Below are positions 20,427 to 22,260 of a stretch of 64,000 nt of DNA, piece after piece. How positions within the stretch are numbered: position 1 is the stretch's first letter; the number at the start of each line of letters is the position of its first letter. The position numbers were made by a program, and so were the translations under genes. The stretch lies in NCBI RefSeq assembly GCF_003933745.1, contig NZ_RSEB01000004.1, forward strand, positions 248,001-312,000. The letters run 5' to 3'. A model generated the notes under the pieces. It was given only the letters and a program-made list of their open reading frames with translations, was not told the DNA's origin and did no database searches. This DNA comes from Glycomyces terrestris (GTDB taxonomy: Bacteria; Actinomycetota; Actinomycetes; Mycobacteriales; Micromonosporaceae).

Positions 20427-20880
20427 GCCGGAGAGCCTTCCAGTCGAAGGGGGTCCGTTCCGATCCGCGCGGATGTGCGCGGTTCCTCTCAGGATTGTAA
20501 GGAACGCACCCATTTGCCGGGGGTCCCGAACGCAGTCCCTTTCGCCCGGCCGGTCGCGTTGCGCCCCAACCGCACCGGCGGCCCCGCCCCGGGGGCGGGT
20601 CCGCCTCCGCTCACCTGGCGAGCGGCGGCGGCCGCCCGCGAGGCCGCGCCGCGGCTGCCGCTGGGCGTCTCCCCGCGAAGGACGGCGACCCCCGGCCTGC
20701 ACCCGTCGCGCGAACCCGGACGCCTCCGGTGAGGACCCGCTCGCTGCGGCCGCCGGCCGCCGCCGGCCGCCGCCGGTCGCCGCCGACCACCGGTGTGCCC
20801 TTCGACACCGGTCGCCCGCGCTGCCTGGGGGAACACGCCCGGTCGTGCTGCCGGATTCGTCGGATGCGGGAAGCGTGTGC
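20427..20880. other. Intergenic region between hydrolase and DAHP synthase leader
   Basis: I see no gene in these 454 bases. A tandem GC-rich stretch of GCCGCCGGC-type units runs from about 20746 to 20790. The leftmost part would hold the hydrolase promoter; no confident hexamers stand out. Confidence 0.4.
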
Positions 20881-20886
20881 TACGGT
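20881..20886 (+). promoter_or_regulatory. Leaderless-type -10 before the aromatic leader peptide
   Basis: TACGGT (TANNNT) ends six bases before the leader ATG at 20893, so the transcript would start at or next to the ATG. A possible but poor -35 (TTCGTC) lies at 20856-20861. A perfect nine-base inverted repeat (20864-20872 with 20886-20894) spans this promoter and the ATG, and could be an operator. Confidence 0.5.
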
Positions 20887-20892
20887 TCCCGC

Positions 20893-20961
20893 ATGTCCGC
20901 CGTCCGCTGGTATCAGCGCTTTACGCAGGCTCCGGGTGGAGCCCGCGGTCACTTGCGCTGA
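20893..20961 (+). CDS. Aromatic leader peptide (putative attenuator)
   Basis: This 22-codon reading frame has the sequence MSAVRWYQRF then TQAPGGARGHLR. It places Trp6, Tyr7 and Phe10, all three end products of the aromatic pathway, within five codons. It ends 129 bases before the DAHP synthase start and is followed by a terminator-like hairpin. There is no Shine-Dalgarno, but a -10 box six bases upstream fits a leaderless mRNA, where the ribosome starts on the 5'-terminal ATG. Ribosome stalling at these codons when charged aromatic tRNAs are low would control the downstream gene. A leaderless aromatic leader (aroR) before aroF is known in Corynebacterium glutamicum; equivalence is inferred. 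Confidence 0.65.
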   Translation: MSAVRWYQRFTQAPGGARGHLR

Positions 20962-20981
20962 CCTGACGGACACCCGGAGCC
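20928..20981 (+). promoter_or_regulatory. Leader RNA helix competing with translation
   Basis: GGCTCCGGGTG (20928-20938, inside the leader peptide after the aromatic codons) pairs perfectly with CACCCGGAGCC (20971-20981, after the leader stop). A ribosome stalled at codons 6-10 would leave it free to form, while a ribosome reaching the stop would block it. Extra CGC/GCG pairing just touches the foot of the next hairpin. Confidence 0.5.
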
Positions 20982-20984
20982 ACG

Positions 20985-21008
20985 CGGCAGAGACACCCGT
21001 CTCTGCCG
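20985..21008 (+). terminator. Attenuator hairpin in the DAHP synthase leader
   Basis: Ten perfectly paired bases (20985-20994 with 20999-21008) close a four-base loop and are followed by TTCGTCGTTT, which is T-rich for this genome. It lies 23 bases after the leader peptide stop, the position expected for an attenuator terminator. Confidence 0.55.
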
Positions 21009-21018
21009 TTCGTCGTTT

Positions 21019-21077
21019 GAGGCGGGCCGGCCCGGGTCGATGCCGAGTGGATTCCCACCCGCCTCTGCAACCAGAGG
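21019..21077 (+). promoter_or_regulatory. Possible ribosome-site switch before DAHP synthase
   Basis: CCTCT (21062-21066) can pair with the ribosome site AGAGG (21073-21077). The overlapping CCCGCCTC (21058-21065) can instead pair with GAGGCGGG (21019-21026). The two helices exclude each other, so the ribosome site is free only when the upstream pairing forms. Confidence 0.4.
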
Positions 21078-21090
21078 AGACTTCCGCTCG

Positions 21091-22176
21091 ATGAGCACGC
21101 CGACCGACACCGCCGCCCCGCAGACCAGCGACCTCCGCGTCCGCGGCTTCCAGCCGCTCGTGGCCCCGGCCGTCCTGCGCGGCGAGCTGCCGCTGGGCCC
21201 CGACCGCGCCGCCCTCGTGGCGCACAGCCGCGCCGCCGTCAAGGACGTCCTCGCGGGCGACGACGACCGGCTCCTCCTGGTCGTCGGGCCCTGCTCGGTC
21301 CACGACCCGGCCGCGGCCAAGGACTACGCGCAGCGCCTCGCCGCGGCGGCCGCCCCGCTCGCCGACGACCTCCTGGTGGTCATGCGCGTCTACTTCGAGA
21401 AGCCCCGCACCACCGTCGGCTGGAAGGGCCTCATCAACGACCCGCACCTGAACGGCACCCACGACATCGGGCTCGGCCTGCGCCTGGCCCGCCAGGTGCT
21501 CCTCGACGTGCTCGACACCGGCCTGCCGGTCGGCTGCGAGTTCCTGGAGCCGCTCAGCCCGCAGCACATCGCCGACGCCGTCTCCTGGGGCGCCATCGGC
21601 GCCCGCACCACCGAGAGCCAGGTCCACCGCCAGCTCGCCTCGGGCCTGTCGATGCCGATCGGGTTCAAGAACTCCACCGACGGCGACCTCGCCGGCGCGA
21701 TCGACGGCTGCCGCTCCGCCGCCGGGGAGCACACGTTCTTCGGCGTCGACGAGGACGGCCGCGCCTCCATCGTCTCCACCAGCGGCAACCCCGACTGCCA
21801 CATCATCCTGCGCGGCGGCCGCGGCGGCCCCAACTACGGGCCCGCCGACGTGCGCGACGCGCTCGCGCTCCTGGCCAAGCACGGCATGCCCGAGCGTCTG
21901 GTCGTGGACGCCAGCCACGCCAACTCCGGCAAGGACCACGTCCGCCAGGCCGAGGTCGTCCGCGAGCTCGGCGACCGGATCGCGCTGGGGGAGCGGGGCA
22001 TCGCGGGCCTGATGATCGAGTCCTTCATCGAACCGGGCCGCCAGGAGCCCGCCCCGCTCGAGACCCTCGTCTACGGCCAGAGCGTCACCGACGCCTGCGT
22101 CGGCTGGGACGAGACCGAGCGCCTCCTGAACGAGCTCGCCGCCGCCGTCCGCGCCGGCCGCGAACGCCGCGCCTAG
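21091..22176 (+). CDS. Type I DAHP synthase (AroG/AroF-like)
   Basis: This 361-residue enzyme condenses phosphoenolpyruvate and erythrose 4-phosphate, the first step of the shikimate pathway. It closely follows the E. coli AroFGH type: VVGPCSVHDPAAAKDYA, MRVYFEKPRTTVGWKG (PEP and metal site), LINDPHLNG, GAIGARTTESQVHRQLASGL, IGFKNSTDG, NPDCHIILRGGRGG and DASHANSGK. Type I enzymes of this class are feedback-inhibited through an N-terminal extension; residues 1-40 are present here. The ATG at 21091 has AGAGGAG upstream; an earlier in-frame start would sit inside the leader. The preceding leader peptide and hairpins suggest control by aromatic amino acid supply. Confidence 0.95.
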   Translation: MSTPTDTAAPQTSDLRVRGFQPLVAPAVLRGELPLGPDRAALVAHSRAAVKDVLAGDDDRLLLVVGPCSVHDPAAAKDYAQRLAAAAAPLADDLLVVMRVYFEKPRTTVGWKGLINDPHLNGTHDIGLGLRLARQVLLDVLDTGLPVGCEFLEPLSPQHIADAVSWGAIGARTTESQVHRQLASGLSMPIGFKNSTDGDLAGAIDGCRSAAGEHTFFGVDEDGRASIVSTSGNPDCHIILRGGRGGPNYGPADVRDALALLAKHGMPERLVVDASHANSGKDHVRQAEVVRELGDRIALGERGIAGLMIESFIEPGRQEPAPLETLVYGQSVTDACVGWDETERLLNELAAAVRAGRERRA

Positions 22177-22188
22177 ACGCACCCGGAG

Positions 22189-22218
22189 ACGGCGCGCCCG
22201 CGACCGCGGGCGCGCCGT
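22189..22218 (+). terminator. Terminator of the DAHP synthase gene
   Basis: Fourteen complementary bases on each side (22189-22202 with 22205-22218), 12 bases after the stop. The two-base loop implies that the innermost pair opens. It lies immediately upstream of the PadR promoter. Confidence 0.75.
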
Positions 22219-22242: not shown

Positions 22243-22260
22243 TATTCTAGCGCTAGAATA
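22243..22260. promoter_or_regulatory. PadR operator overlapping its leaderless -10
   Basis: TATTCTAGCGCTAGAATA is a perfect 18-base palindrome ending five bases before the ATG at 22266. Its right arm contains TAGAAT (22254-22259), a -10 box six bases before the ATG. A dimeric repressor bound here would cover the promoter, so autorepression is likely. Confidence 0.7.

Follow-up and report, generated by a model that had tools for sequence, protein, structure and literature searches.

Upstream of a gene for a type I DAHP synthase, Glycomyces terrestris carries a short reading frame with aromatic codons and several stretches able to pair as RNA, which raises the question of whether this gene is controlled by attenuation, in response to which amino acids and through which structures. 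The first step of the shikimate pathway, catalyzed by this enzyme, feeds the aromatic amino acids and many natural products. The locus was analysed within a window of 64,000 nucleotides, i.e., the whole stretch of DNA under study (contig NZ_RSEB01000004.1, positions 248,001 to 312,000), and coordinates are numbered from its first nucleotide. Our results indicate that this aroF-type gene is probably controlled by a ribosome-mediated attenuator comparable in kind to the aroR element of Corynebacterium glutamicum.

Leader frame, promoter and control codons

The gene at 21091..22176, located on the forward strand as are all the leader features described below, encodes a protein of 361 amino acids that matches TIGR00034 (E 2.7e-145) and PF00793 (E 4.6e-86), which confirms the type I DAHP synthase (aroF/G/H family) proposed as the target in the original prediction. 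A probable Shine-Dalgarno sequence of this gene, AGAGGAG, is read at 21073..21079. As the genome contains one type I match and, elsewhere, one type II match (PF01474), the aroF product is one of two isozymes at the entry of the pathway. A type II DAHP synthase, the enzyme named AroG in C. glutamicum, was found in all 61 of the 61 genomes checked. Downstream of the aroF stop codon, a GC-rich inverted repeat, CGGCGCGCCCGC-GACC-GCGGGCGCGCCG (22190-22217), has no clear T-run and is possibly the transcript end, and an 18-bp perfect palindrome, TATTCTAGCGCTAGAATA (22243-22260), precedes by five bases the start codon (ATG, 22266) of a gene encoding PadR and GyrI-like domains, of which it is perhaps the autoregulatory operator.

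Upstream of aroF, a leader peptide frame of 22 codons, MSAVRWYQRFTQAPGGARGHLR (20893..20961), extends from an ATG at 20893 to a TGA stop at 20959-20961 and carries Trp6, Tyr7 and Phe10, exactly as had been predicted. An extended -10 element, TGC-TACGGT (20878..20886), is read just before it, the hexamer TACGGT (20881-20886) being preceded by TGC and located 6 bases 5' of the leader ATG. This placement, also pointed out in the original prediction, is of the leaderless type, and the RNA is thus predicted to begin at the leader ATG itself. The spacing recurs in homologues: when TANNNT was searched for 4-9 nt 5' of the leader start in 75 homologous loci (composition given below), it was found in 74 of them, always at 6-8 nt (6 nt in 17, 7 nt in 54 and 8 nt in 3 loci), with TGn ahead of it in 43 of the 75. 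As a chance background, TANNNT stands 6-7 nt 5' of 8 out of 3017 ATG or GTG codons of the window. Leader start codons were ATG in 38 and GTG in 37 of the 75 loci. Generic promoter and terminator scans found nothing at the leader region. Upstream of the promoter, GC-rich imperfect repeats of the GCCGCCGGCC type occur at 20746-20786.

The putative control codons, Trp6 TGG (20908-20910), Tyr7 TAT (20911-20913) and Phe10 TTT (20920-20922), occupy 20908..20922 and belong to a peptide core whose residues are conserved across the 75 loci (Tyr in 75, Phe in 74 and Trp in 70). Over these loci, core codons comprise 77 TTT and 16 TTC for Phe, and 81 TAT and 4 TAC for Tyr. The reverse is seen in 37 ORFs of the window, with 6 TTT vs. 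445 TTC and 6 TAT vs. 344 TAC, a count biased by the choice of ORFs, made partly on their GC-rich third positions; an unfiltered count of the 28 longest ORFs of the window, which include some non-genes, gave 7 TTT, 226 TTC, 4 TAT and 135 TAC. Since the 75 loci differ in genome GC content, the 19 Glycomyces leaders provide the fair comparison: TAT and TTT are each found at the control positions of all 19, and the two extra TTC codons within the first 13 codons of these leaders are Phe2.

The original prediction held that one peptide reports all three aromatic end products to the enzyme. Our data weaken this claim: Tyr and Phe are near-invariant, whereas 5 of the 75 loci, 4 of them among the 19 Glycomyces, have no Trp in the core, and 61/61 genomes encode a type II DAHP synthase as well. 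Trp being dispensable, sensing of all three aromatic amino acids is not established. It is quite conceivable, if somewhat short of the favored view, that the element is a Tyr/Phe sensor in which Trp6 is incidental, a judgement that bears on sensing alone and is compatible with attenuation. Against this, Trp is kept in 70 of the 75 loci and occupies two alternative positions in Glycomyces cores (WYQRF and YWRF), as if selected. Retention of the Trp codon where the type II enzyme is absent was also considered, and is ruled out by the presence of this enzyme in every genome checked. The suggestion that a mixed W/Y/F sensor may be new in this kind of actinomycete is also weakened: mixed codon sets are common in the family, with W+Y+F cores in Mycobacterium, Rhodococcus, Micromonospora, Arthrobacter and Isoptericola, as well as in 5 of 13 clear Corynebacterium leaders, and aroR of C. 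glutamicum is already published.

RNA helices, covariation and distribution

Strand 1, GGCTCCGGGTG (20928..20938), is the exact reverse complement of strand 2, CACCCGGAGCC (20971..20981), so that the 11-base-pair helix said to overlap the peptide and its stop is indeed present. This helix, 1:2, spans the stop codon and is the candidate antiterminator. It is followed by a terminator-like hairpin, T (20984..21009; stem of 9-11 bp, loop ACCC), whose core GGCAGAGAC-ACCC-GTCTCTGCC covers 20986-21007, with 10 bp at 20985-21008 and one further G-U pair possible. The predicted 10-bp hairpin was therefore correct, but its tail, TCGTCGTTTG (21010..21019), is only moderately T-rich. Two features are added here to the original prediction. 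A hairpin within the coding region, P1 (GGCTCC-GGGT-GGAGCC, 20928..20943), is a candidate anti-antiterminator that shares strand 1 with helix 1:2, since GGCTCC at 20928-20933 can pair either with 20938-20943 or with 20976-20981. Moreover, the minimum-energy fold points to strand 5, GGCCCGGGT (21029..21037), as a candidate second partner for strand 2. The folding energy of the leader RNA is 4.15 standard deviations below that of its shuffles. Rfam covariance models (T-box, Trp/Phe leader, riboswitches) gave no match at gathering score over the window, and no Rfam match at E up to 5 was obtained for 20860-21100. By eye, the post-stop GACGGAC could also be matched to GTTCGTC, located beyond T, but this pairing was rejected, as it looks broken in several Glycomyces.

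Covariation was evaluated on a sequence-only alignment (A2; 32 of 67 loci), the structure being drawn on one of the aligned sequences; another alignment of the loci left out 12 Nocardia-type rows. In A2, 94.0% of the cells of helices 1:2 and T were paired vs. 86.4% after shuffling, with 52 two-sided change cells vs. 12.8 and two-sided changes at 11 of 22 pairs vs. 6.4, and none of 500 shuffles was as high for either paired cells or two-sided cells. Sliding the partner columns by 1 to 3 positions lowered pairing to 36-53%. Two-sided changes affected 7 of the 11 pairs of T, and G-U changes were among the RNA-type covariation of the helices. Further pair types showed no excess in helices 1:2 and T of A2 (24 vs. 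24.1 shuffled). Each of the six pairs of P1 forms in 26 to 32 of 32 sequences, with almost no compensatory change, so that this hairpin is weakly tested.

Duplex energies were compared in the 75 loci. Helix 1:2 averaged -25.0 kcal/mol with its own partner vs. -19.3 kcal/mol with the partner of other clades and, in narrow windows, beat 95% of shuffles in 69/75 loci; pairing 2:5 averaged -19.2 vs. -15.7 kcal/mol after swapping and beat 95% of shuffles in 46/75 loci, being weak within Glycomyces (6/19) and frequent in Nocardia-type loci (11/14). Own partners beat 95% of the swaps in only 39 (1:2) and 21 (2:5) loci, probably because several clades share similar strands. Over long windows, comparison with shuffles was unconvincing, values of 0.05 or less being reached in 19/67 loci for 1:2 and in 14/67 for 2:5. 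A further helix, 5:6, was weak, beating 95% of shuffles in 21/75 loci, 8 of which are of the Nocardia type. These duplex tests are not independent proofs, as the loci are related, dinucleotide composition is not preserved by the shuffles and any sequence will yield some best duplex.

The original prediction proposed conservation in related genomes, and of W/Y/F codons and hairpins in homologous leaders, as a test. The element was indeed conserved: a type I match was found in 19 of 22 Glycomyces genomes, with the leader in 19/19, and other actinobacteria share it, with core residues conserved in the 75 loci and helices 1:2 and T covarying. A Glycomyces-led search yielded 11 further loci, of which 7 had the leader (L020-L026) and 4 (L027-L030; 44-52% identity) had none by reading; one more type I place from this search, in genome G032, lies outside the loci read. 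In a scan of named genomes, the best 80 of 592 matches were examined and the leader was found in 42 of them (L031 counted), i.e., in 42 of the 50 actinobacterial loci among these 80; the eight actinobacterial loci lacking it came from two Nocardiopsis, two Bifidobacterium, a Gardnerella, a Gryllotalpicola and two uncultured Streptosporangiales. The loose leader pattern also fired in 11 of the 30 non-actinobacterial loci among the best 80 of 592, with frames unlike the motif. In one non-actinobacterium, Pseudogemmobacter hezensis (L108), a short frame with AAVWFYYF, which starts 205 nt upstream of the match to type I DAHP synthase, is perhaps an independent aromatic leader, or chance, given how often the loose pattern fires in such loci.

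In an even draw of the phylum, comprising 396 genomes, 57 places in 56 genomes matched the type I enzyme at E <= 1e-60; 42 of these places were inspected (30 loci and 12 regions), the 15 weakest being left out. In the class of the window, the leader was present in 13 of 13 genomes with a type I match, the window's own included. Outside this class, the 29 inspected places comprised 6 with a different aromatic leader, 1 with an aromatic-rich frame seen by eye and 22 with none. The six (L131-L133, L151, L152 and L154, from another class of the same phylum) have an FYYF or RFYY leader ahead of the type I DAHP synthase gene, with hairpins and T-runs after the leader, and the single frame (L130), MTDRLGISFAPTPAGGEYGWFSYAYAWRFS, very rich in aromatic residues and outside the search pattern, lies 192 nt before the DAHP synthase match. 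In the genus Corynebacterium, 15 of 61 genomes had a type I match at E <= 1e-60; among these 15 loci, 13 had a clear R-F-Y-F leader (W-R-F-Y-F in 5), one had QYY by eye and one had none. In 14 Nocardia-type loci, T is absent by reading, a clean, uninterrupted 1:2 is mostly missing, and 2:5 forms a bare hairpin; in such loci (e.g., L058, L065 and L148), CGAGCCGG-loop-CCGGCTCG stands in place of the terminator, without a T-run.

The set of 75 loci was composed of 19 Glycomyces loci, 7 from the Glycomyces-led search, 41 from named genomes (best 80 of 592) and 8 from the even draw. L031, on the same contig as L016, the repeats L128, L129, L138, L150 and L170, L156 and the different (FYYF/RFYY-type) leaders of the even draw stand outside it. 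A covariance model run over the 396 genomes gave 11 hits only, under strict filters and with 9 candidates scored per genome, and the protein-first search found more. In the genome of the window, where 150 of 6847 candidates were scored, the model found the element only here, the two other hits (E 0.77 and 0.79) being the minus strand of the same place.

Ribosome position and competing mechanisms

The proposed scheme follows the anti-antiterminator/antiterminator/terminator model supported by mutations for the ilvBNC operon of C. glutamicum (PMC11857589). With charged aromatic tRNAs plentiful, the ribosome would run through the leader, helix 1:2 would not persist and transcription would end at T. 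With Tyr-tRNA (or Trp-tRNA, and probably Phe-tRNA) in short supply, the ribosome would stall just upstream of strand 1, melting P1 and freeing strand 1; helix 1:2 would then form beside T and take strand 2, and transcription would continue into aroF. As to how 1:2 might weaken a hairpin that it abuts, we can only guess that it prevents an outer stem 2:5 from forming, or that it acts kinetically or sterically.

The geometry of the leaders is regular, the first aromatic codon lying 13-20 nt 5' of strand 1 in 67 of 73 loci (Nocardia type excluded). Folds of RNA ending within the 5' arm of T were computed for 71 of 87 loci, 14 Nocardia-type loci and 2 with a helix shorter than 7 bp being left out. 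The mean probability of 1:2 was 0.62 without a ribosome, 0.95 with a ribosome at the first aromatic codon, 0.27 at the last one and 0.78 at the stop codon; corresponding values in the window were 0.81, 1.00, 0.18 and 0.90. A stall at the first aromatic codon, here Trp6, thus favors 1:2 in these folds. By geometry, a stall at Tyr7 would also leave strand 1 free, and one at Phe10 would do so only under a short footprint. The value at the last codon indeed depended on the footprint past the P-site start, falling from 0.87 at 9 nt (0.75-0.87 over 9-11 nt) to 0.64 at 12 nt and 0.27 at 15 nt. It should be noted that these are equilibrium folds of isolated RNA, which allow 1:2 to close around a ribosome at the stop codon, maybe a steric impossibility.

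When RNA was folded to the end of T, with the ribosome masked at each aromatic codon, at the stop codon or absent, the probability of T stayed within 0.72-1.00 for 55 loci, and within 0.83-0.98 for 13 loci of Corynebacterium, whatever the ribosome position tried (the hairpin folded in L180 was a 5-bp one). No fold competing with the stem of T was found at any of these positions in equilibrium folds, nor was melting of the terminator stem by the antiterminator, of the trp type. As T forms at every position tried, no structural antitermination is predicted. Helix 1:2 abuts T, with a gap of 0-3 nt in 51 of 68 loci, of -1 in 4 and within -3 to 5 nt in 56, and the boundary bases shared by antiterminator and terminator in ilvBNC were not found. 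The nearest-helix script used for this measurement is unsuited to Nocardia-type loci and often misses T in Corynebacterium, for which it returned a gap of 0 in 2 of the 10 loci in which it found a hairpin; adjacency in this genus was therefore assessed by eye. The doubt expressed in the original prediction, on how the two helices exclude each other, was therefore well placed, and the predicted folds do not remove it. Sequestration of the aroF ribosome-binding site was not supported either: its mean accessibility barely changed with ribosome position (0.416 free, 0.447 with the ribosome stalled on the last aromatic codon and 0.413 with it at the stop), a shift of 0.1 being upward in 12 and downward in 4 of 67 loci.

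Besides the persistence of T in the folds, the unconvincing long-window duplex test and the lack of an excess of further pair types, several observations go against the attenuator model. Under a 15-nt footprint, the probability of 1:2 drops when the ribosome stalls on the last aromatic codon, which is mostly Phe, C. glutamicum is reported to be unaffected by Tyr limitation (PMC11802643), and the 14 Nocardia-type loci are without T by reading. The first two of these would fit the opposite polarity, in which 1:2 is the OFF state and strand 1 is masked only when the ribosome stalls on the final aromatic codon (Phe), leaving strand 2 free for strand 5 as the ON state: 1:2 averages 0.27 there vs. 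0.78 at the stop codon over 71 loci, the downstream partner of strand 2 beats 95% of shuffles in 46/75 loci, and the reported response is to Phe and not to Tyr. We nevertheless regard this polarity as unlikely, because strand 5 is transcribed only after T, so that 2:5 cannot prevent termination at T, because the masking vanishes with a shorter footprint and because the conserved upstream Tyr and Trp codons would be idle.

The decision could also be taken after T, with 1:2 vs. 2:5 (and possibly 5:6) controlling Rho-dependent termination or the start of aroF translation, and T merely accessory. The fact that T never melts in the folds points in this direction, as does the performance of 2:5 against shuffles, including in 11 of the 14 Nocardia-type loci where T is absent by reading. 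Such a mechanism appears rather improbable to us, since ribosome position has little effect on how accessible the aroF ribosome-binding site is, 5:6 outperforms 95% of shuffles in just 21/75 loci, T is followed by a long T-run in most Corynebacterium loci, where no clear strand 5 can be made out by eye, and attenuator transcripts are reported in this genus (PMC4046766). Finally, in a very GC-rich intergenic region where generic scans see neither promoter nor terminator, the inverted repeats might be protein-binding sites on DNA, or a chance GC-rich fold, with the ORF untranslated; the joint conservation of aromatic core, rare codons and promoter spacing, together with RNA-type covariation that includes G-U changes, makes this very improbable indeed. 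A ribosome-mediated attenuator is thus the reading that we retain as probable. Going further, we tentatively envisage, as a doubtful extension, a class-wide family in which antiterminator and terminator share no bases, the former excluding the latter because it abuts it and withdraws strand 2 from a partner beyond T, and in which ordered codons (Tyr/Trp, then Phe) at near-fixed distances give amino-acid-specific responses.

Relation to known attenuators

The closest known system is aroR of C. glutamicum, where a DAHP synthase gene subject to attenuation is likewise preceded by a small leader peptide with aromatic residues. Attenuator transcripts and a leader peptide are reported for aroF (cg1129) in this species (PMC4046766), where attenuated aro genes rise under starvation (PMC6892785). 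The published core of aroR, Phe-Tyr-Phe, differs from ours in containing no Trp, and the aroF operon is reported to rise under Phe limitation, Tyr having no effect (PMC11802643). Replacement of aroR has been used to relieve control by Phe and Tyr, a control called translational in that report (PMC7356990). No statement that aroR is leaderless was found in the portions of this literature available. Among the Corynebacterium loci compared, strand 1, strand 2 and hairpin T resemble the Glycomyces element in most, and GGCTCCGG-type codons come after the aromatic core, in the same position relative to the gene; the differences are a longer T-run after the hairpin in most loci (by eye), that of the window being weak, and a strand 5 that is not evident by eye.

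In ilvBNC of C. glutamicum, hairpins 1 and 2 share a strand, as is also the case here, but the control codons are branched-chain and not aromatic, and antiterminator and terminator share a GCC trinucleotide, whereas 1:2 and T abut. Leaderless attenuator peptides before aromatic pathway genes are also described as Streptomyces trpL1/trpL2 (S. lividans; PMC8079986) and among actinobacterial elements (PMC1262725); those of Streptomyces differ by having Trp-only control codons, before trpE and trpS. In the parts of these sources available, eight leaders are given for S. lividans, none of them for a DAHP synthase (PMC8079986), and three for C. diphtheriae, namely trp, ilvB and leu (PMC5784534), while a survey of actinobacteria reports that Phe and Tyr operons have no conserved RNA structure ahead of them (PMC1262725). 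The uORFC-13-1 motif before aroF in Acholeplasma (PMC8632094) is alike by its description, a predicted uORF and terminator before a DAHP synthase gene, and differs by its Phe (U-run) codons and its unrelated hosts.

In the literature consulted, mostly titles and the beginnings of abstracts with subscription journals mostly uncovered, no description of this element outside Corynebacterium was found. Judging from the leaders compared here, attenuators of the aroR kind would therefore be more widely distributed than we found in print: the element, with its almost constant codon block and covarying strands, is shared by many actinobacteria and, in these partial sources, is described only in Corynebacterium. 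It offers a compact target for studying or relieving the control of aroF, and a test case for attenuation in GC-rich bacteria without base sharing between antiterminator and terminator.
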